Virus record (IMG/VR): IMGVR_UViG_3300008107_001212
Location: 1 to 23,184 of that record
Source: a virus
Reading direction: 5' to 3' (one strand)
DNA length: 23,184 bases
This document shows positions 4,762 through 14,460 of this stretch, one piece after another. Under the pieces are notes generated by a model that ran no database searches, was not told the origin of the DNA, and saw only the letters and a list, made by a program, of their open reading frames with translations. The position numbers and the translations under genes are program-made. The first letter of the stretch is position 1. Every line of letters begins with the position of its first letter.

Positions 4762-5152
4762 AAGTGGAATTTCCCGCAGCTACAAAACTGAACTTCTTCG
4801 CGGAATCCATTCCGAGAACGATGAATATTACATGGCTCTTTATACGGATTCCGCCAATATCGGGCCGCAAACTCAGCGGTATTCTCCGGATGGAGAGGTT
4901 ACTGCGGATGGCTACGAAAAAGGCGGAAAGAGAGTCGGCCTTAATGTGTCTGCGCTTGGGTACGGGGCGGTCTTGACCTTGGATGAACAGGTGTGGGAAA
5001 ATACCACTATTACTGCTGGCGGTTCCATGATATACAATGCCAGCAAGGACGGACGAGCGGTGGCTGTGATGTCTTTTGGCGAGAGTGTTTCCTCTGTGAA
5101 CGGAAAATTCACAGTAACCCCAGTTTCTGGTCAACTCATCAGGATTGTTTGA
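4754..5152 (+). CDS. Small beta-rich phage protein, probable virion surface component
   Basis: This 132-residue protein starts at the ATG at 4754, which follows a GGAGGTGG ribosome binding site inside the portal 3' end; the frame extends further upstream but without such a site. It is rich in predicted strands, with motifs YYMALYTDSA, VTADGYEKGGKRV, ENTTITAGGSMIYNASKDGRAVAVMSFGE and NGKFTVTP. The pattern of an AxIYN-type strand followed by an Fg/sG turn is shared with the next gene's product, so the two may be distant paralogues. I do not know the function. The position between portal and protease and the beta-sandwich look fit a capsid decoration or fibre-base protein. Confidence 0.7.
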   Translation: MIESGISRSYKTELLRGIHSENDEYYMALYTDSANIGPQTQRYSPDGEVTADGYEKGGKRVGLNVSALGYGAVLTLDEQVWENTTITAGGSMIYNASKDGRAVAVMSFGESVSSVNGKFTVTPVSGQLIRIV

Positions 5153-5153
5153 A

Positions 5154-5555
5154 ATGGCAAACGCAATTTACCCACTTTACAAGCAGGCACTCCTTGACGG
5201 AGACACCAATATCGACCTGAACGACCTGACCGTTAAGGTGGCTCTTGTTGATACTGGGGCGTACACATATTCAGCCGCCCACCAGTTTCTGTCCTCCCTG
5301 ACCGGGGTGGTCGGAACTGCTCAGACGATTGCCGCCACCACGGTCACCAATGGCGTTTTCGACGGCGACAACGTAACCTACACCGCCGTAACCGGAAACT
5401 CTGTCGAAGCTCTGGTCATCTACATTGACACCGGGGTTGCCGGCACTTCGCGGCTGGTGGCCTATATCGACACGGGCGTAACCGGATTGCCAGTGACGCC
5501 CAATGGCGGGGACATTACTGTGACTTGGAACGCTTCCGGCATCTTCGCCCTGTAA
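5154..5555 (+). CDS. Small beta-rich phage protein, possible paralogue of the preceding gene product
   Basis: This is a 133-residue protein (MANAIYPLYKQALLDG...). The ATG at 5154 is two bases after the previous stop and is preferred to the TTG at 5145. Proteins opening with ANAxYPxYKxALL and continuing with VKVALVDTGAYTYSAAHQFL recur in phage structural regions and are normally left as hypothetical. The later segments TTVTNGVFDGDNVTYTAV and EALVIYIDTGVAGTSRLVAYIDT look like strands of a small beta sandwich. The layout (YK-ALL-G near the start, an ALxxDTA strand, an IY strand, a final GG-fTVT strand) parallels the preceding gene. The role is unknown; capsid decoration or a fibre-related part is plausible. 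Confidence 0.72.
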   Translation: MANAIYPLYKQALLDGDTNIDLNDLTVKVALVDTGAYTYSAAHQFLSSLTGVVGTAQTIAATTVTNGVFDGDNVTYTAVTGNSVEALVIYIDTGVAGTSRLVAYIDTGVTGLPVTPNGGDITVTWNASGIFAL

Positions 5556-5569
5556 GTAAGGGGTAGAAA

Positions 5570-6577
5570 ATGACCTGCCCGTTTTATAATGCCGTTAAAA
5601 GCACAACTTCGGGCGCGCCCGGAACAGGTAACTTTACGCCCAATGCGGCGGCGTCTGGATTTATTCATTGGGCCGATAGCATTTACGGAGCGCCAACCGG
5701 CTATATCGGATTAGTTCGTTACGACGACGGCTCAGAGTGGGAATTGCGTTACGGCTATTGGAATGGAACGACTATCAGTCGTCCGACTAATGGCTTTGTC
5801 ACCAGTTCAAGTGGTTCGGGTCTGTCTCTATCCGCATCTGCAACAGCAACCTTGGTTGCGGACGGCGGCGCTGTGCAGCCACATTTGGGTATGGGCTTTG
5901 CGCGAGGATACACCGGCATTCCGGCGGCTACCACGACGCCCACGGCTCTTGGTGCTGCCGCTGCCACCGTGACTGGTACGGCAGGCTCCTCTACATTCGC
6001 CACGACCAACTTCTTGACTGAGCAGCCAACCAGTCAAACGGCCAGCGCCACCACTGCCAACGCGCAGGCGGGATATACTACGCCGGTTCAGGCGGTTAAC
6101 AATACGGCGTCCGGGCGCGGTGGCTGGGGCTTCATGGCTAGGTTCGGCACCTCCACCACGATCCCAACTGGTCGCCGCTTATTCGTTGGGGCAACCGGCA
6201 CGACTTTCGTCGGCGTGACAACCGATCCCAGTGCCCTGACTGCGCATTACGCCGGCTTCGCGCTCGATAGCGCCGACACCAATATTCAACTCCTTGTTAA
6301 CAGCAATGCTGGCACCGGCACAAAGACTGACACCGGCATACCGCTCGTTCAGAACGGCTGGTATCACGTTCAGCTTTCGATGCGTTCCGGCGGCGGTCGC
6401 GTTTATGCCTTGCTGATCCGGCTCGATACCGGGGCCATTTGGTACGGCCACGTCACGACAGACGTTCCGGGGGTAACAACACTGCGCGGTCATGTGCTGG
6501 GCGGTTTGTCCGGCACGACTGGCACGGCGTTTACGATGAACATGAGCGCGATGATGCTGCGCTCTGGTGGATGGTAA
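5570..6577 (+). CDS. Phage fibre-like structural protein
   Basis: This is a 335-residue beta-rich protein of low complexity (many G, T, S and A). Residues 1-100 resemble a domain common at the N-termini of phage fibre and receptor-binding proteins: an opening MTCPFYNAVKSTT, then SEWELRYGYWNGTTISR and a serine-rich turn (SSSGSGLSLSASATATLV). This matches the usual 'WE-g-GTy-..TTLsR..v..Ss..g..v..s' pattern. The C-terminal half (GRGGWGFMARFGT, GWYHVQLSMRSGGGRVYALLIRLDTG) looks like a jelly-roll or lectin-like domain. It stands between portal and capsid genes rather than with the tail, so a head fibre or decoration is as likely as a tail fibre. Its stop directly abuts the next start (TAA then ATG), suggesting the two products are made together. 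Confidence 0.7.
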   Translation: MTCPFYNAVKSTTSGAPGTGNFTPNAAASGFIHWADSIYGAPTGYIGLVRYDDGSEWELRYGYWNGTTISRPTNGFVTSSSGSGLSLSASATATLVADGGAVQPHLGMGFARGYTGIPAATTTPTALGAAAATVTGTAGSSTFATTNFLTEQPTSQTASATTANAQAGYTTPVQAVNNTASGRGGWGFMARFGTSTTIPTGRRLFVGATGTTFVGVTTDPSALTAHYAGFALDSADTNIQLLVNSNAGTGTKTDTGIPLVQNGWYHVQLSMRSGGGRVYALLIRLDTGAIWYGHVTTDVPGVTTLRGHVLGGLSGTTGTAFTMNMSAMMLRSGGW

Positions 6578-7737: not shown

Positions 7738-9642
7738 GTGCCTGAAGAGCTTGAAGAGCGGATGAAGGTCAAGGTTGAGGTCGAGATCGACAGCGATCCT
7801 ATCATCGACGTTGAGGAAGACATGGGCGAAGATGGCCGTGAATATGTTCTGGTTTCTGAAGAAACCGACCGCAAGAACGTAGTCGAGCTTGAGCGTCGCG
7901 CCACCGACATGGATATTCGCGGCGTTGACGAAAAGAAGCGCACTGTAAGCATTGCCGTATCTTCGGAGCTTCCGGTCGAGCGCTCTTTCGGCAGGGAAAT
8001 TCTTGTTCATGAGGACGGCGCCATTGATATGGCTTTCCTCTCGTCTGGCCGGGCACCGCTGCTGCTTGACCACGATATGGAACGCCAGATCGGCGTGATT
8101 GAATCTGTCGAACTTTCTGCCGACAGGGTGCTGCGAGCCAAAGTCCGGTTCGGGCGCTCTGCACTAGCGCAGGAGGTTTTTCAGGATGTTGTCGATGGTA
8201 TTCGCGGAAACGTCTCCGTTGGATACCGCGTCAACAAAATGGAGCGCTCTGCTTCGGGCAAGGATGAATACTTTGTCCGTTCGTGGTCGCCCCTTGAGGT
8301 ATCTGTCGTTTCGATCCCTGCTGACCCGTCAGTCGGCGTCGGTCGTAGCGCGGCTGCTCTCGAACCCAAACCTACCGTTGAACCATCCATCAAAAAGGAG
8401 GCCAAAATGGCTGACGAAGTGAATCTGGATGCGGTTCGGGCCGAAGCTGCTGAAGCTGCTGCCCGCAATGCCGCCGCCATCATCGAACTGGGTGCGCGCC
8501 ACAACAAGCGCGACCTCGCTGACGCTGCAATCAAGTCGGGCAAGAGCATCGAGCAGTTCCGTGGCGAACTGCTGGAAGTGATCGGCAACGACAAGCCGCT
8601 CGACAATCAGGACATTGGCCTGAGCAAGAAGGAAGCCCGTAGCTTCTCGCTGGTTCGCGCCATTGCCGCCCTCGCCAACCCCGGCGACCGTCGCCTGCGC
8701 GAAGCTGCCGCCTTCGAATTTGAAGCTGGTGAAGCTGCTGCTCAGCGCTATGGCCGCTCGGCTCAGGGCATCATGGTCCCCGTTGACGTTCTCGGCGTCT
8801 GGAAGCAGCGCGACCTGAACACCTCGGACGACAACGAAATCGTTGCCACCAACCTGATGGCCGGCGACTTCATCGACGTTCTGCGCAACTCGGCTTCGGT
8901 CATGCAGGCCGGCGCCCGCATGATGCCGGGTCTGGTTGGCAACGTGGCGATCCCGAAGAAGACCGCTGCTTCGGCTGGCGGCTGGATCAGCACTGAAGGC
9001 GGCGCTTCGAGCGAATCGGAACCGACCTTCGGTACTGTCAGCCTGACGCCGAAGACTGTTGGTGCGTTCACCGACATGACCCGCCAGTTGATCCTTCAGT
9101 CGACTCCGTCGGTTGAAGCTCTGGTTCGCGATGACCTGACCCAAGCTCTGGCTCTGGCTATCGACAAGGGCGCTCTGGAAGGAACCGGCCTGTCGGGTCA
9201 GCCGACCGGCATCCTCAGCACTGTTGGCGTCAACAAGCCGACCAACTTCGCTGCTGCGGTTCCGACCTTCGCTGAAATGGTGGCTCTCGAAACCGCCGTT
9301 GCCGAAGACAACGCTCTGATGGGCAACCTTGCCTACATCACTGACGCTGCCACCTACGGCGGCCTGAAGACCAAGGCCAAGGACGCTGGTTCGGGCATGT
9401 TCGTGATTGAGAACGGTCAGGCCAACGGCTACAACGTGATCCGCTCGCAGCAGTGCACCGCCGGGAATGTCTACTTCGGTAACTTCTCGGACCTGCTGAT
9501 CGGCATGTGGGCCGGTCTGGACCTGACGGTCGATCCGTACACCGCTTCGACGAGCGGCACGGTTCGTATCGTCGCCCTCCAGACGGTTGACGTTGCGGTT
9601 CGTCACGCTGTGTCGTTCGCTTACAACAACGACGGCGCATAA
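7738..9642 (+). CDS. Prohead protease-major capsid fusion protein
   Basis: This 634-residue protein joins a prohead protease to an HK97-fold capsid protein. It starts at GTG 7738 behind a GAGGA site; an ATG at 7762 is an alternative. Residues about 65-200 are the protease: LLLDHD gives the candidate catalytic His112, GNVSVGY gives Ser160, and SPLEVSVVSIPADP gives Glu187 as the likely third member. Residues about 224-330 form an alanine/glutamate-rich helical region (AEAAEAAARNAAAIIE, FRGELLEVI) that probably acts as scaffold. The capsid domain follows, with GTVSLTPKTVGAFTDMTRQLI, DLTQALALAIDKGALEG and GQPTGILSTVGVN. Base use shifts towards preferred C-ending codons from the capsid part on, as expected for a highly expressed product. 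An internal start (8407) probably yields free capsid protein. Confidence 0.92.
   Translation: MPEELEERMKVKVEVEIDSDPIIDVEEDMGEDGREYVLVSEETDRKNVVELERRATDMDIRGVDEKKRTVSIAVSSELPVERSFGREILVHEDGAIDMAFLSSGRAPLLLDHDMERQIGVIESVELSADRVLRAKVRFGRSALAQEVFQDVVDGIRGNVSVGYRVNKMERSASGKDEYFVRSWSPLEVSVVSIPADPSVGVGRSAAALEPKPTVEPSIKKEAKMADEVNLDAVRAEAAEAAARNAAAIIELGARHNKRDLADAAIKSGKSIEQFRGELLEVIGNDKPLDNQDIGLSKKEARSFSLVRAIAALANPGDRRLREAAAFEFEAGEAAAQRYGRSAQGIMVPVDVLGVWKQRDLNTSDDNEIVATNLMAGDFIDVLRNSASVMQAGARMMPGLVGNVAIPKKTAASAGGWISTEGGASSESEPTFGTVSLTPKTVGAFTDMTRQLILQSTPSVEALVRDDLTQALALAIDKGALEGTGLSGQPTGILSTVGVNKPTNFAAAVPTFAEMVALETAVAEDNALMGNLAYITDAATYGGLKTKAKDAGSGMFVIENGQANGYNVIRSQQCTAGNVYFGNFSDLLIGMWAGLDLTVDPYTASTSGTVRIVALQTVDVAVRHAVSFAYNNDGA
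8395..8409 (+). promoter_or_regulatory. Internal ribosome binding site and start codon for separate capsid protein
   Basis: AAGGAG at 8395-8400 lies six bases before the in-frame ATG at 8407 (residue 224 of the fusion, reading KMADEVNL). This is one of the strongest Shine-Dalgarno matches in the window, yet it lies in the middle of an open reading frame at the exact boundary between protease and capsid domains. Initiation here would produce a 411-residue scaffold-capsid protein in excess over the protease fusion. It parallels the nested C/Nu3 arrangement of lambda, but with the capsid protein as the nested product. Confidence 0.75.
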
Positions 9643-9705: not shown

Positions 9706-9975
9706 ATGGTATTGTCTACCGCCTCGATGATGGGCAAAAATTCGGAGAAGGTTATGGCAAAGTATAAGTGCATTCGCGGTGTGGTAACCAGCCAAGGCGT
9801 TGCCAACGTCGGCGACATTGTTGAGCTTTCTGAGCGCGAAGCCAAAGCCCTCTCGGCCAAGTTCGTGCCAGTGGAAGATGCGCCTGAAGAAATCCGGGTG
9901 GCAGAGGCGCCTGCCATAGAGCATCGCGATCCCGTTGCTCCCCGGCGCGGTCGTCCGGCTAAGGCGTTCAAGTGA
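9706..9975 (+). CDS. Small phage structural-region protein with basic C-terminal tail
   Basis: This protein has 89 residues from the ATG at 9706, which follows GAGGAGG with five-base spacing. A second in-frame ATG at 9754 (MAKYKCIRGVVTSQG) has its own GGAG site at 9744-9747. The related small phage proteins I know usually begin MAKYK and carry a GDxVELSxxEAKAL core, seen here as VGDIVELSEREAKALSAKF. The core resembles a small beta barrel, and the tail (RRGRPAKAFK) is basic. Such genes are found between the capsid and the head-tail connector and usually remain unnamed. The stop overlaps the next GTG start (GTGA at 9972). It may be a connector accessory or a decoration protein; the function is not known. 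Confidence 0.72.
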   Translation: MVLSTASMMGKNSEKVMAKYKCIRGVVTSQGVANVGDIVELSEREAKALSAKFVPVEDAPEEIRVAEAPAIEHRDPVAPRRGRPAKAFK

Positions 9976-10280
9976 TCGAGTCTAGCGCAGACCTGCTTGA
10001 CTTTCTGTCCCTCGACGACTTCGCCGAGAATGCGACCTATACGCCGATTGCTGGGAGCCCGGTAACGGTTCAGGGCATTTTCGATGCGCCGCAGGCGAGC
10101 CGCAATATCACCGAGATGATGGATGTCACGATCCCGGCGCCGCAGTTTGTCTGCCGCACGGTCGATGTGCCCAATGCGGCTGATGGCGACAGCATCACAA
10201 TCCGGTCCGTGGCGTATTATGTCCGGGTGGTGATTACCGATGGAACCGGGATTAGCACCCTAATGCTTGAGAGGGCTTAA
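9972..10280 (+). CDS. Head-tail joining protein, gpFII-like
   Basis: This 102-residue protein starts at GTG 9972, overlapping the preceding stop. It matches the lambda gpFII (phage_attach) layout: an N-terminal LLDFLSLDDFAENATY segment, a GIFDAPQASRNI strand, QFVCRTVDVPNAADGDSITI and the final SVAYYVRVVITDGTGISTLMLERA. gpFII-type proteins sit at the tip of the filled head and form the docking site for the finished tail. The stop overlaps the next start (TAATG). Length is close to the family norm. No lesion is seen. Confidence 0.85.
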   Translation: MIESSADLLDFLSLDDFAENATYTPIAGSPVTVQGIFDAPQASRNITEMMDVTIPAPQFVCRTVDVPNAADGDSITIRSVAYYVRVVITDGTGISTLMLERA

Positions 10281-10789
10281 TGGCCCATGTCCGTAAGCAG
10301 ATCAGGGATTATGTCGCGGTCCTGCTAACGGGCTACGTCTACGACCGTTTTGGCATTGTCCTGCTGGATCGCAGTGGGTCAAAGCTGGAGGTTAATAACA
10401 CCCTGCTGCCGACCGGCTCTATCTACAAGTCGCGGCATTATGCGCTGGATGATTCCAAGCTGCCAGCCATTCTGGTCTACACCGAATCCGACATTACAAA
10501 CCTGGCGACTATCGGCAATCGCACCTTGGCGCACAATCTGGAACTGGGTATCGATATTCTCAACAAGGGTGCAAGCGGTAGCATCTTTGAGAACGTCGAG
10601 CAGTTTGCCGCTGACATTGTTTGGGCGCTGGAAAACGATTACGACTTTGGCGGCTTGGTCAAGTCGTGTGAGCTTGCCTCCATGCAGACGGACACCAATT
10701 CGCAGGGCGAGCGCACCGTCGCCAGCGCCCAGTTGCGCTTTAACGTAAGATATGTCACCGCAATTGGCGATTGCGAGGTTTCGATCTAA
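10280..10789 (+). CDS. Tail terminator/completion protein, copy 1
   Basis: This 169-residue protein begins MAHVRKQIRDYVAVLL and shows the gpU/tail-terminator pattern: an N-terminal helix, a YKSRHYALDDSKLPAILVYT strand block, then the HNLELGIDILNKGASG strand and a helix (FAADIVWALEND). It closes with VASAQLRFNVRYVTAIGDCE. Terminators cap the tail tube and set its end for head attachment. The next gene is an evident paralogue, sharing IRDYVA, LDD/IDD-KLPA, KGAS, GLxKSC and GER-VASA. This copy has about 22 extra residues near position 20-45 (YDRFGIVLLDRSGSKLEVNN). TAATG overlaps flank it on both sides, so it is translated in a coupled series. Confidence 0.75.
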   Translation: MAHVRKQIRDYVAVLLTGYVYDRFGIVLLDRSGSKLEVNNTLLPTGSIYKSRHYALDDSKLPAILVYTESDITNLATIGNRTLAHNLELGIDILNKGASGSIFENVEQFAADIVWALENDYDFGGLVKSCELASMQTDTNSQGERTVASAQLRFNVRYVTAIGDCEVSI

Positions 10790-11232
10790 TGGCGCACATT
10801 CACCAGCAAATCCGCGACTATGTGGCCACCCAGGTCAACGCCATTGGGACGCTGACGGGCAAAGTCTACAAGATGCGCAATCACGCCATTGACGATGGCA
10901 AGCTGCCTGCGGCGGTGGTCTATACCAACACTCAGCAGTCCTCTGTCATTACGATTGGCATGATGACGGCGCGCGGATCGCTGGAGTTGGTTGTAGAGAT
11001 TTACGTAAAGGGCGCTAGTGCCACCATCTCCGATACGCTGGATGAGTTGTGCGTCTTGGCTGAAAACGCCCTGGCCGCTGACTTTACCGTCAACGGCTTG
11101 GCCAAGTCATGCGTTTTGACCGGGACGGAAATCGACATTAATGTTGAGGGTGAGCGGGCAGTGGCGTCAGCGCGCTTGGTTTATGCCGTCGAATATGTTA
11201 CAAGCATTGGCGATGTGGAGACTGCGCAATGA
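10789..11232 (+). CDS. Tail terminator/completion protein, copy 2
   Basis: This is a 147-residue paralogue of the preceding gene (MAHIHQQIRDYVATQV...). The shared blocks run in the same order: YKMRNHAIDDGKLPAAVVYT, LELVVEIYVKGASATI, NGLAKSCVLTGTEID, GERAVASARLVYAVEYVTSIGDVE. It lacks the insertion seen in copy 1 and so looks closer to the ordinary terminator length. The start ATG overlaps the upstream TAA and the stop overlaps the next ATG, which is tight packing on both sides. Divergence is large enough that this is not a recent duplication. One copy may cap the tube and the other complete the head side, or they may form a mixed ring. Confidence 0.75.
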   Translation: MAHIHQQIRDYVATQVNAIGTLTGKVYKMRNHAIDDGKLPAAVVYTNTQQSSVITIGMMTARGSLELVVEIYVKGASATISDTLDELCVLAENALAADFTVNGLAKSCVLTGTEIDINVEGERAVASARLVYAVEYVTSIGDVETAQ

Positions 11233-11375
11233 AGATGGTGCCTGTCTATAACGCCAATGGCGACAAGATTCTTGCTTGTGCCGATGCTGTCGAGTATTAT
11301 CGCAGCATTGGTTGGGCTACCGAAGAACCGGCCAAGGAAAAACCGAAGGCCAAGGCCGCTAAGGAGACTGCATAA
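11229..11375 (+). CDS. Micro-protein between tail terminator and tail tube genes
   Basis: This is a 48-residue ORF. It starts at ATG 11229 (ATGA overlap with the terminator copy 2 stop) and ends at TAA 11375, which overlaps the tail tube ATG. Such exact overlap on both sides strongly supports a real gene. It reads MKMVPVYNANGDKILAC, then YYRSIGWATEE, and ends in a lysine/alanine repeat tail (AKEKPKAKAAKE). The central N-G-D-K-I and SIGW elements are typical of small beta-rich phage proteins in tail regions that remain uncharacterised. The charged tail is probably disordered. No function can be given. Confidence 0.8.
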   Translation: MKMVPVYNANGDKILACADAVEYYRSIGWATEEPAKEKPKAKAAKETA

Positions 11376-11773
11376 TGGCTACTCATACTGGCAGTGAGGG
11401 CACCGTCAGGGTGGGTGCCAACGCTATCGCCGAGATCCGTTCGTATTCGGTCGAAGAAACCGCTGATACGGTCGAGGATACCTCGATGGGCGATAGCTAC
11501 CGGACCCATAAGACCACGCTAAAGGCGTGGACGGGCACCGTGGACGTTTTCTGGGATGAGACCGACACCAATGGTCAGGTCGCCCTGACGGTCGGTAGCC
11601 AGGTTACTGTCTCGTTCTTCCCCGAAGGAACGTCCGCTGGTCAGTCGGAAAAGTACCTGACCGGCGATGCTATCGTGACCGGCAAGACCGTTTCGGCCTC
11701 GTTTGACGGCATGGTTGAATCGACCATCACGCTTCAGGGCACTGGCGCTCTGACGCTTTCGACTCTGGCCTAA
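11375..11773 (+). CDS. Major tail (tube) protein, copy 1
   Basis: A 132-residue tail tube protein. The central block RSYSVEETADTVEDTSMGDSYRTHKTTLKAWTGTVDVFWDETD has the pattern of tube proteins that stack as hexameric rings. It is followed by QVALTVGSQVTVSFFPEG, YLTGDAIVTGKTVSASFDGMVESTITLQGTGAL. The position just after terminator genes and before the G/GT-like chaperones matches lambda gene V. A very similar second copy follows after 10 bases. By eye the two share roughly 85% of residues, and residues about 21-65 are identical apart from many synonymous changes in the DNA. Both copies are intact. Which is the main tube subunit cannot be told from sequence. Confidence 0.85.
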   Translation: MATHTGSEGTVRVGANAIAEIRSYSVEETADTVEDTSMGDSYRTHKTTLKAWTGTVDVFWDETDTNGQVALTVGSQVTVSFFPEGTSAGQSEKYLTGDAIVTGKTVSASFDGMVESTITLQGTGALTLSTLA

Positions 11774-11783
11774 GAGGTAGATC

Positions 11784-12176
11784 ATGGCAACGCATACTGG
11801 TAGCGAGGGCACTGTCCGGGTCGGAGCGAGCAACGACATCCTTGAGATCCGCTCGTATTCGGTTGAGGAAACTGCTGACACCGTTGAAGACACTTCGATG
11901 GGTGACAGCTATCGCACTCACAAGACGACCCTGAAGGCTTGGACCGGCACGGTCGATGTGTTCTGGGACGAGACCGACTCGACCGGCCAAGGCGCGCTGA
12001 CTGTTGGCAGCGAAGTCACTGTTCGCTTCATGCCCGAAGGCACAATCGGCGGCGATGCCTATCTGAGCGGCAGCGCAATCGTCACCGGCAAAACCATCTC
12101 GGCGTCCTTTGATGGGATGGTCGAATCCACCATTACCTTGCAGGGGACCGGGGCGCTTACCACCACCACCGTCTAA
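11784..12176 (+). CDS. Major tail (tube) protein, copy 2
   Basis: This 130-residue paralogue of copy 1 differs mainly in three places: the start (GASNDILEIRSY rather than GANAIAEIRSY), the loop after the GQxALTVGS strand (RFMPEGTIGGDAYLSG versus SFFPEGTSAGQSEKYLTG) and the last residues (TTTTV versus TLSTLA). These are likely surface or inter-ring loops, so the copies may occupy different positions along the tail or meet different partners. The block of about 45 identical residues in the middle is encoded with many third-base differences, showing long selection for the same protein sequence. It follows copy 1 by 10 bases with its own AGAGGT site. Confidence 0.85.
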   Translation: MATHTGSEGTVRVGASNDILEIRSYSVEETADTVEDTSMGDSYRTHKTTLKAWTGTVDVFWDETDSTGQGALTVGSEVTVRFMPEGTIGGDAYLSGSAIVTGKTISASFDGMVESTITLQGTGALTTTTV

Positions 12177-12192: not shown

Positions 12193-12531
12193 ATGAGTAT
12201 TGCACAGCGTATCACGGCTCGGACGAGCCAGAAGCGTCATATCGAAGTTCCGCAGTGGGGTGAGCCTGGTAGTCCTGAAAAGGTCTTCTTCGGCCCCCTG
12301 CTTGCTGGTGAACTCAACCGGATCCAGCGCAAGCATCCCAGCTTCCTTCAGTCGGCCTCGTTTGAGGCGATGGTGGATCTTATCATCCTCAAGGCTGAAA
12401 ACGGCCAAGGCGACAAGCTGTTTACGCTGGAAGACAAGCCGGTCCTGATGCGGGAAGAGGTGGCCGTAATTTCAGGCGTGGCCGCTGAGATGATGTCTGG
12501 AACGAGCGTCGAGGACCACGAAAAAAACTAA
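12193..12531 (+). CDS. Tail assembly chaperone, G-like
   Basis: This 112-residue protein lies between the tube genes and the tape measure, where lambda gene G lies. It starts at ATG 12193 behind AAGGAG. The N-terminal half is beta-like (RHIEVPQWGEPGSPEKVFFGPLLAGELNRIQRKHP) and the rest helical (FEAMVDLIILKAENGQGDKLF). Chaperones of this class coat the tape measure and recruit tube subunits during tail assembly. It ends at TAA 12529-12531 immediately after a run of seven A and a C, which forms a -1 slippery heptamer that would extend it into the T-like frame. Confidence 0.8.
   Translation: MSIAQRITARTSQKRHIEVPQWGEPGSPEKVFFGPLLAGELNRIQRKHPSFLQSASFEAMVDLIILKAENGQGDKLFTLEDKPVLMREEVAVISGVAAEMMSGTSVEDHEKN
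12522..12528 (+). promoter_or_regulatory. -1 ribosomal frameshift site (A AAA AAC)
   Basis: The heptamer AAAAAAC sits in the correct phase for tandem slippage: the zero frame reads GAA AAA AAC then TAA. It ends directly before the G-like stop codon, and the -1 frame downstream is open for 54 codons. Slippage at this position is the standard way long-tailed phages make a small share of G-T fusion chaperone. No stem-loop downstream was worked out. Confidence 0.85.
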
Positions 12532-12692
12532 AAGACGATCCGCTGAGGTACAATCTCGTTACCTTGGCGGATCGCCTCGGCAAAACCATCGCGGAGATTG
12601 AAGAAATCTCAATTTCAGAGTACAACGAGTGGGTCGCCTACTTCAAGGTAGAGGAAGAGAGACGGAAGCGTGGCCCAGCAAAACACTCTTGA
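12528..12692 (+). CDS. T-like extension of the tail chaperone, read by -1 frameshifting
   Basis: From the slippery site the -1 frame reads KLKDDPLRYNLVTLADRLGK, then TIAEIEEISISEYNEWVAYFKVEEERRKRG, and stops at TGA 12690-12692. This gives 54 added residues and a fusion of 166 residues in total. The E-Y-N-E-W-xAYF helix with a charged tail is what GpT-type domains look like. It has no good start codon of its own, so it should exist only as part of the fusion. It overlaps the tape measure start (GTG 12670) by 23 bases. In lambda the T part binds the tube protein while the G part binds the tape measure. Confidence 0.82.
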   Translation, partial: LKDDPLRYNLVTLADRLGKTIAEIEEISISEYNEWVAYFKVEEERRKRGPAKHS

Positions 12693-13932
12693 CTTCCTCA
12701 TTGCCGCCCAGGTCACTGGGCAAGAGCAGATGGCGAAGCTCATTCGCGAGGTTGGCGCGCTTCGCGCAGAGACGGACAAGCTGCGCGAGGCAAATAAGGC
12801 GCTTTCAAGCTCAACGGATGCCGTAGTCCGTAACGGCGTCCGTTATAATAATGCCCTAGATGCTCAGTCCAAGGCCATGCGTCAGCAGCGGCAGGGTGCG
12901 CAGCAGCTTACGATGCAGATGAATGACTTCTTTACATCAGTAAGCACTGGCGCTAGTCCGGTTCAGGCATTTAACCAGCAAATCGGCCAAATTGGCTATG
13001 CCCTTACTCTTTTTGAGGGTAATGCTGGTAAAGTCGGTCGTTTGCTGAGCGGGCCGTTCGGGATTGCCCTGATGCTTGCCTCTGTGGCGCTTGGCAAGGT
13101 CGGCAAGGACTCCGATAGCGTCGGCGAGAAGTTTGACCGGCTTGGCGCAATCGGCGTCAGCGCGGGCAAGTCGATTGCTTCGAACTTTAATGAGATGCTG
13201 GCCCCAGCCATTAAGGCGCTTGGCCCAGTAATTCAGCTTGTTGAGGACATGATCCCGCACATAATGGAAGCCTTTGCCAATATGGCGAAGGGCGTCCTCG
13301 CAGTATTCAACCGTGTTGTGGGCGGCGTTGTCGGGCTAGTTACCGCCTCAATCATCGCAATTAAAAACTCGATCTCGGTCGTTCTTGATCTAGGCGTCGG
13401 CGTGGTCAATGCGTTTATTCGCTTGGTCGCCGCGCTCGGTGTATCCACTCGGGTCGCAGAGGTCAGGTTTGGCCGTCTTGAGGAAGTCACCAATAGGTGG
13501 GCAGGGTCTGCTGTAAAAACCGCCAATGAAGTTGGCGAGGCGTTTTTGAAGTCATTCCGCTCTGACCTCATCGATATTGATGAGATCATGGCTGGCGTGA
13601 AGATGAAGCCTAAGGCCAAGGATAAGGAAAAAGGCGGCGGCGGAAAGGGCAAGTCCGAAAAGCGGGAGGAAGACCTCTCGAATGTCAATCTAATCGAGCG
13701 TAACCAAGCGTCGATTGCCGCGATCCTGAAAAAGGGCCAGGATGCTTGGCAGGAGTATTGGGACAAGGCTTCTGGCATTGCGGGCCATGCCATGGAAAAG
13801 GTGGTTGAGATTACCGCCATGGCAACCGCCTCGGTCAACACCCTTGGCGATCAGATGTCGCAGACATGGCTCAATCGATATGAAGAGATCCAGCGGTCCT
13901 TCACCTCTATTGGTGAGGCAGTTTCCAATTAG
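12670..13932 (+). CDS. Tape measure protein, N-terminal part, ended by an in-frame TAG
   Basis: 420 residues from GTG 12670, embedded in the end of the T-like frame. Features: an N-terminal coiled coil (residues about 15-50, MAKLIREVGALRAETDKLREANKAL), a middle of alternating hydrophobic and glycine-rich segments (PFGIALMLASVALGKV; VVGGVVGLVTASIIAIKNS; VGVVNAFIRLVAALGV), a lysine/glycine linker (KPKAKDKEKGGGGKGKSEK) and a further helix. Tape measure proteins set tail length and are ejected into the host. The TAG at 13930-13932 interrupts the text SFTSIGEAVSN-stop-DGMKGIINAV, and the same frame continues directly in the next entry. Joined, the protein would be about 596 residues. Confidence 0.85.
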   Translation: MAQQNTLDFLIAAQVTGQEQMAKLIREVGALRAETDKLREANKALSSSTDAVVRNGVRYNNALDAQSKAMRQQRQGAQQLTMQMNDFFTSVSTGASPVQAFNQQIGQIGYALTLFEGNAGKVGRLLSGPFGIALMLASVALGKVGKDSDSVGEKFDRLGAIGVSAGKSIASNFNEMLAPAIKALGPVIQLVEDMIPHIMEAFANMAKGVLAVFNRVVGGVVGLVTASIIAIKNSISVVLDLGVGVVNAFIRLVAALGVSTRVAEVRFGRLEEVTNRWAGSAVKTANEVGEAFLKSFRSDLIDIDEIMAGVKMKPKAKDKEKGGGGKGKSEKREEDLSNVNLIERNQASIAAILKKGQDAWQEYWDKASGIAGHAMEKVVEITAMATASVNTLGDQMSQTWLNRYEEIQRSFTSIGEAVSN

Positions 13933-13938
13933 GATGGC

Positions 13939-14460
13939 ATGAAGGGCATTATTAACGCCGTCATTAATGAACTGTGGCGGCTGTTTGTCGTGCAGCAGAT
14001 TGTCGGCATGATTACTGGTGGCCTGAACAATCTGTTCGGCTTTGGCGGCGGCGCTGTCTCTGGCATGCCCTCCATGTATGGTGCCGCGACTGCTGTGGGT
14101 AGCCAGTTGTCTGGCTCGACGCAGTTCTTTGGCCCGGCGAAAAGCTCTGGTATTTTTACTCCCGGCTTCGCCAACGGCACCCAGAACGCCCCCGGCGGCA
14201 TGGCATGGGTCGGCGAGCGCGGGCCTGAACTGGTCAATCTGCCGCGTGGCAGCCAAGTCATTCCGGCCCACCGCGCTCAGAGCATGGGCGGCGGCGGTGT
14301 CACCATCAACGTAGACGCTCGCGGCAGTGCGGATCCGGCTGCGGTGCGCGCCCAGGTCCAGCAGGGCATCATTGAGGCTGCGCCCTCAATCATTGCCGCT
14401 GCCGAAGCCCGCACGGTTCAGGGGCTGCGTAGGCCGCGTCTCGGAGGGGCAATCAAGTGA
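13939..14460 (+). CDS. Tape measure protein, C-terminal part
   Basis: This is 173 residues in the same frame as the upstream part, six bases after the TAG. It reads MKGIINAVINELWRLFVVQQIVGMITGGLNNLFGFGGG. That is the usual late section of tape measure proteins, and it is followed by FTPGFANGTQNAPGGMAWVGERGPELVNLPRGSQVIPAH, a very common C-terminal tape-measure signature. The end is a helix with RGSADPAAVRAQVQQGI. An AGGATGG stretch (13931-13937) just before ATG 13939 could allow re-initiation after the stop, so a split tape measure is possible. Alternatively the gene is simply inactivated by a point mutation. The stop overlaps the next GTG start (GTGA). Confidence 0.8.
   Translation: MKGIINAVINELWRLFVVQQIVGMITGGLNNLFGFGGGAVSGMPSMYGAATAVGSQLSGSTQFFGPAKSSGIFTPGFANGTQNAPGGMAWVGERGPELVNLPRGSQVIPAHRAQSMGGGGVTINVDARGSADPAAVRAQVQQGIIEAAPSIIAAAEARTVQGLRRPRLGGAIK

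Follow-up and report, generated by a model that had tools for sequence, protein, structure and literature searches.

To our knowledge, the tail tubes described for siphophages consist of a single stacked protein or, in the case of SPP1, of two forms of the product of one gene. The open-licence papers that we searched contained no siphophage tube built from two genes. The two major tail protein forms of SPP1, gp17.1 and gp17.1*, occur at a ratio of about 3:1 (PMC8718954), and they are derived from the same gene through a translational frameshift that appends an extra C-terminal domain. Contractile injection systems carry more than one tube-fold protein in one tube, with Cis1 forming the tube and the initiators Cis5 and Cis7 serving as its first layers (Alg1, Alg5 and Alg7; PMC8894135, PMC8894136). 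Homologues of the tube proteins considered here are found in the roseophage R4C (vB_DshS-R4C, PDB 8gtb) and in the Roseobacter phages CRP-811, CRP-821, CRP-823 and CRP-831. These tubes have the same size and predicted fold, are encoded at the same place between the terminator and chaperone genes, and are the product of one gene that gives one kind of ring. In the R4C tube, the residues that join ring to ring are V33, W36, M38, F46, T48, V49 and K107, whereas the contacts within a ring involve the pairing of b5 with b2 and a D67/E70/E103-R91/K126 network (PMC10276861).

Here, we analysed a linear fragment of 23,184 bases from a lambda-like siphophage (hereafter the window), in which two adjacent genes encode the tube proteins A and B. 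The likeness to SPP1 would lie in the presence of two tube-protein forms in one siphophage tail, and that to Cis1 with Cis5 and Cis7 in the presence of more than one tube-fold protein in one tube. Whereas the SPP1 forms stem from one frameshifted gene, A and B are encoded by complete ORFs of their own (132 and 130 amino acids), each with a separate start, and differ inside the core of the protein. Likewise, Cis5 and Cis7 belong to contractile systems and are linked to the baseplate, whereas A and B are 84% identical neighbours. No sheath gene was found beside the tube genes of the window, which are flanked by an ORF of 48 codons, the chaperone gene, and lambda-type connector and tape-measure genes. 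The pair differs also from the single tubes of R4C and the CRP phages, for which the best identity to A is 62-64%. Neither SPP1 nor the contractile injection systems thus represent the arrangement seen here.

Results

Organization of the tail genes

The window has the siphophage order of terminator, tube, frameshifted chaperone and tape measure (all tail-gene coordinates given here refer to the + strand). From position 9972 onwards, a head closure gene is followed by two tail terminator genes at 10280-10789 (169 amino acids; PHROG 4204, E=4.7e-16) and 10789-11232 (147 amino acids; PHROG 4204, E=7.1e-22), which agrees with the first-pass annotation of a doubled terminator next door to the tubes. 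A lysine-rich protein of 48 amino acids (11229-11375) is encoded between the second terminator and tube A (11375-11773), and tube B (11784-12176) starts 10 nt downstream of A. These genes are followed by those for the tail assembly chaperone G (12193-12531; PHROG 344, E=4e-5), the tape measure protein (12670-14460) and the distal tail protein (Dit). An AAAAAAC slippery site (12522-12528) is present at the 3' end of the chaperone gene and the -1 frame is open beyond it, as in the usual G-T frameshift of tail chaperones. Of 107 related loci, 104 retain the A6 run, which was missing in one contig (L050/L128/L149).

Three other genes of the window have an unusual structure. The tape measure is divided into parts of 420 and 173 amino acids by an in-frame stop codon (13930-13932) that coincides with the junction of an in-frame deletion (36 nt compared to L089), while in the other relatives examined it is one ORF of about 540-670 amino acids. 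This stop is either a strain variant or an assembly error. The terminase large subunit also looks split, with two overlapping frames (550-1992 and 1745-2500) that continue one protein and a frameshift near position 1950. Lastly, a single ORF of 634 amino acids (7738-9642) appears, by eye, to encode a head-maturation protease fused to the major capsid protein.

Both tube proteins matched the major tail protein family PHROG 1407 (E=5.8e-15 for A and 3e-12 for B), and the R4C tube was found at E=7e-11 with a profile of 66 relatives. Pfam gave weak matches for the tube proteins, with Phage_tail_2 remaining below the cut-off for A, and was not relied on by itself. AlphaFold models of A and B (mean pLDDT 79.8 and 76.2, respectively) showed the same order of elements, and both contain the beta sandwich, long loop and peripheral helix of the tube fold. 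The best PDB match of the A model was the R4C tube (E=2.4e-6), with the tubes of GTA, monocin, lambda and SPP1 scoring lower. Profiles and models thus indicate that A and B are siphophage major tail (tube) proteins, and they are predicted to form hexamer rings in virions.

Comparison of the two copies

According to BLASTP, A and B are identical at 111 of 132 residues (84%; E=3e-76), close to the 85% that had been estimated by eye. The identical central run extends from E20 to D64 of A and counts exactly 45 residues, the approximate number given in the first-pass annotation. The DNA identity is 73% over 129 aligned codons. As had been noted before, the divergence is concentrated at third positions, with 80 changes compared to 14 and 11 at first and second positions, and 66 of the 111 codons that specify the same residue differ between the copies. 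Since 49 of 68 fourfold sites differ, dS between A and B has reached saturation, compared to a dN of about 0.095. The earlier view that the protein differences gather in three loops proved too narrow, because they are found at residues 15-19, 66-69, 76-98 (a strand plus the loop after it), 106 and 128-132. Copy A is marked by A19, N80, two extra residues at 90-91, E92-K93 and a C-terminal TLA, and copy B by one extra residue after position 15, leucine at 19, arginine at 80, the lack of the 90-91 insert and a C-terminal V. Peptide stretches by which the copies could be told apart are, for example, SAGQSEKYLTGDAIVTGK in A and FMPEGTIGGDAYLSGSAIVTGK in B. Arg80 of B was also considered as a unique lumen charge, but this idea was dropped as some single tubes (L070, L078) have Lys at this position.

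For orthologue pairs with dS below 1, the median dN/dS was 0.078 for A and 0.087 for B. In the comparison of the window with L003, dN was 0.0034 and dS 0.202 for A (dN/dS of about 0.017), and dN was 0.0103 and dS 0.267 for B (dN/dS of about 0.039). The residues that change fastest are 65-99 in both copies, and no broken versions were seen among the complete A or B copies. By the measure of these similarly low rates, both copies are under strong and similar purifying selection, as the first-pass annotation had supposed, and relaxed selection on either copy is ruled out. Together with the absence of broken complete copies, this excludes that A or B is a pseudogene.

Distribution and age of the tube pair

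A scan of viral contigs with A identified at least 595 relatives, and the best 80 loci, many of which are short metagenome contigs, were examined for the presence of the pair. Two tube copies were found in 52 of these best 80 loci, always in the order A then B and with a spacing of 9-12 nt, so that the paired tube duplication is indeed shared by relatives. A tree built from 105 distinct proteins placed the A rows (34) and the B rows (40) in two supported clades, with the single-copy tubes outside (A and B of the window were assigned by ORF, PHROG 1407 and clade, and additionally by the predicted fold for A and the Shine-Dalgarno (SD) comparison for B). This is indicative of one old duplication that has been inherited as a pair, and the two clades and the saturated silent sites both support the earlier claim that the duplication is not recent. 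Placement of the odd pair in L057 within the same two clades was not rejected by AU tests (p-values of 0.38 and 0.47), and an independent duplication in L057 is therefore not required. The 17 cultured phages with a relative gave one match each and no pair was present among them; the annotated region of CRP-811 contains one tube gene. More distant viral relatives, fetched with B or the terminator, have single tubes. At L028:4263-5060, an A of one type adjoins a B of another type, which suggests either recombination between the genes or a chimeric contig.

Recent gene conversion was rejected as a general cause of the similarity between A and B. The mean A/B difference at fourfold sites in 39 distinct genomes was 0.635, compared to 0.656 expected for fully randomised codon usage, and the difference within genomes (0.63) equalled that between genomes (0.63). 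Short tracts were observed in a few genomes. In L007 (tubes at 5001-5396 and 5412-5801), A and B share an identical tract of 53 nt at codons 100-117 that is probably the result of short gene conversion, and the same perhaps applies to L024 and L023. It should be noted that older conversions would leave no trace at saturated sites.

Relationship between tube and terminator doubling

Copies 1 and 2 of the terminator in the window are 40% identical. They form one clade each, T1 (SH-aLRT 100) and T2 (SH-aLRT 99, including one contig that is cut before its first terminator copy), and the terminator doubling can therefore be regarded as an old single event. Copy 2 is nearer than copy 1 to the single-copy terminators. 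The association with the tube pair was counted in those 65 distinct loci in which both flanks could be seen: 24 have two tubes and two terminators, 14 two tubes and one terminator, one (L050) one tube and two terminators, and 26 one of each. The doubling of the terminator is an event separate from that of the tube, and the association between the two is strong, but not obligatory. Of the paired tube-and-cap system that had been proposed for this phage, the association thus stands, and each doubling is single and old. An obligatory coupling is rejected because a single terminator accompanies the tube pair in 14 of the 38 distinct loci that carry it, and L050 shows the reverse.

The closest relative of the window has tubes that are 99% (A) and 98% (B) identical to those of the window and a single, different terminator. 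In the relative L089, with tubes of the same 99% and 98% identity, the chaperone and the tape measure are 94% and 95% identical to their counterparts in the window, whereas this is only 41-63% for the terminator and 62% for Dit. Since the tubes are kept while the terminator and the distal tail protein differ, the pair is not tied to particular end caps. The lysine-rich protein of 48 amino acids is 100% identical in the nearest relative, even though the adjoining terminators are strongly different.

Matched and fixed positions

Separate evolution of A and B after an old duplication would leave A no closer to the B of its own genome than to the B of other genomes. This expectation holds at fourfold sites (0.63 and 0.63), but at the protein level the data depart from it. 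The summed within-genome A/B identity was 102.9 compared to 99.0 between genomes (sd 0.40), a value that was reached in none of 2000 partner shuffles. The excess was located at residues 28-55 (0.957 within and 0.868 between genomes) and 100-112 (0.937 and 0.878, respectively), and was nil or near nil elsewhere. Residues 28-55, comprising the long ring-to-ring loop and its flanking strands, are encoded at 11456-11539 in A; the equivalent codons 29-56 of B are located at 11868-11951. A and B are told apart in most or all of 39 genomes by positions 17, 19, 66, 69, 80, 82, 92, 93, 98, 128 and 131 and by several indels, and these class-fixed positions all lie outside residues 28-55 (Fisher p-value of 0.0009).

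In the profile alignment with R4C, where the mapping of loop residues is approximate and may be off by one or two because the proteins are only about 24% identical (structure alignment), residues 28-55 hold the ring-to-ring loop, with residues 33 and 36 of A coinciding with V33 and W36, and residue 110 within the segment 100-112 corresponds to the facing K107. Residues 69, 72, 95, 106 and 129 coincide with the in-ring set, and many of the class-fixed positions are on or near the strand (76-82) and the salt-bridge positions that join neighbours within the R4C ring. Judged by a tree of the neighbouring genes, there were only about 3-4 independent matching changes per column, a number that would be lower if phages exchange the A-B block. 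The mixed-type pair of L028 breaks the match at residues 33, 51 and 53. The matching may have arisen through parallel change, short gene conversion or both. Whichever its origin, the mapped positions indicate that the stacking surfaces are kept alike and the other surfaces are kept apart.

Ribosome-binding sites

The ribosome-binding site of A in the window is strong (AAGGAGA), and that of B is weaker. The SD sequence of A was stronger than that of B in 45 of 48 genomes, which are related and therefore do not represent independent observations, and the mean duplex energies were -8.7 kcal/mol for A, -6.1 kcal/mol for B and -8.7 kcal/mol for single-copy tubes. This suggests a lower output of B than of A, unless the weaker site is offset by translational coupling. 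No promoter-like site was found on the coding strand in the A-B region. Separate expression of A and B is thus rejected and, with the copies only 10 nt apart, there is no support for the previous suggestion of different tubes at different stages.

Discussion

We favour the view, with a probability of roughly 60%, that A and B are structural tail-tube proteins of one hybrid tube. The tails of this phage group would then probably contain two kinds of subunit, where one is the rule. Rings of A and rings of B would be stacked on one another around a single tape measure, for which their docking surfaces would have to stay in step, and the fixed differences on or near the in-ring strand and salt bridges would make rings of a single kind (A6 and B6) more likely than randomly mixed ones. 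A would probably be the main constituent of the tube, with B forming a minority of the rings, and we consider a zone of B near the tip or neck more likely than strict alternation. The full picture of a siphophage tube with two separately encoded and near-identical subunits, in-step ring-to-ring and distinct in-ring surfaces, and ordered zones of A and B is proposed tentatively. What survives of the first-pass idea of a two-component tube is that it offers the best reading of the evolutionary pattern, without an obligatory link to a doubled cap. The hybrid-tube reading is weakened by the conversion tracts, the small number of matching changes per column (3-4), the mismatch in L028 and the approximate mapping onto R4C.

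A sub-case of the two-component tube, to which we assign a lower but still appreciable likelihood, is that B is exclusively an end-specific ring. A few B hexamers would make up either the layer that begins the tube on the distal tail protein or the one that ends it beneath the terminator, by analogy to the first tube layers of Cis5 and Cis7. This would fit with the weak ribosome-binding site of B, and the shared docking surfaces would be in keeping with the need for B to stack on A; dedicated tube-initiator rings are also precedented in eCIS (PMC8894136, PMC8894135). However, B is 98% identical to its L089 counterpart although the terminator and Dit are both strongly different, B appears far closer to A than known initiators are to their tubes, and the single-tube relatives manage without B.

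Mixed rings, in which A and B alternate within the hexamer (A3B3) or are mixed at random, seem unlikely. The fixed in-ring differences are equally compatible with A3B3 rings and with rings of a single kind, and those on or near strand 76-82 and the salt-bridge positions could be complementary between A and B. However, as B has the weaker SD sequence in nearly all genomes, the two proteins are predicted to be made at unequal levels, A and B of different types are paired in L028, and the hetero-contacts would be hypothetical.

As tail-tube protein is required in large amounts and both copies are intact, the two genes could simply serve to raise the output of one abundant protein. This appears improbable, because across 39 genomes A and B show fixed differences at about ten positions and in several indels but are kept alike in other segments, and because B has the weaker start site. 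Duplicated genes often change function, and one copy might thus have left the virion to take up a different role, such as one in assembly or in countering a host protein, but the matched ring-to-ring loops, the similar constraint and the lack of any broken complete copy make this quite improbable. Recent acquisition of the second tube gene from another phage would account for the saturated silent changes between A and B, which a gene taken from a distantly related phage should show, but is highly improbable considering the same-order pair in 52 of the best 80 loci and the parallel diversification of the A and B clades, and it is rejected for the window by the tree; gene transfer at the time when the pair first arose is conceivable.

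The widespread group of phages with paired tubes provides a natural setting in which to study the function of unlike rings within a single tube. Candidate roles of such rings are specialisation of the tip or neck, stiffness, and contacts with the DNA or the tape measure. Moreover, paired tubes could separate the residues for ring stacking from those for ring building, with the matched and the fixed positions representing direct, testable predictions.
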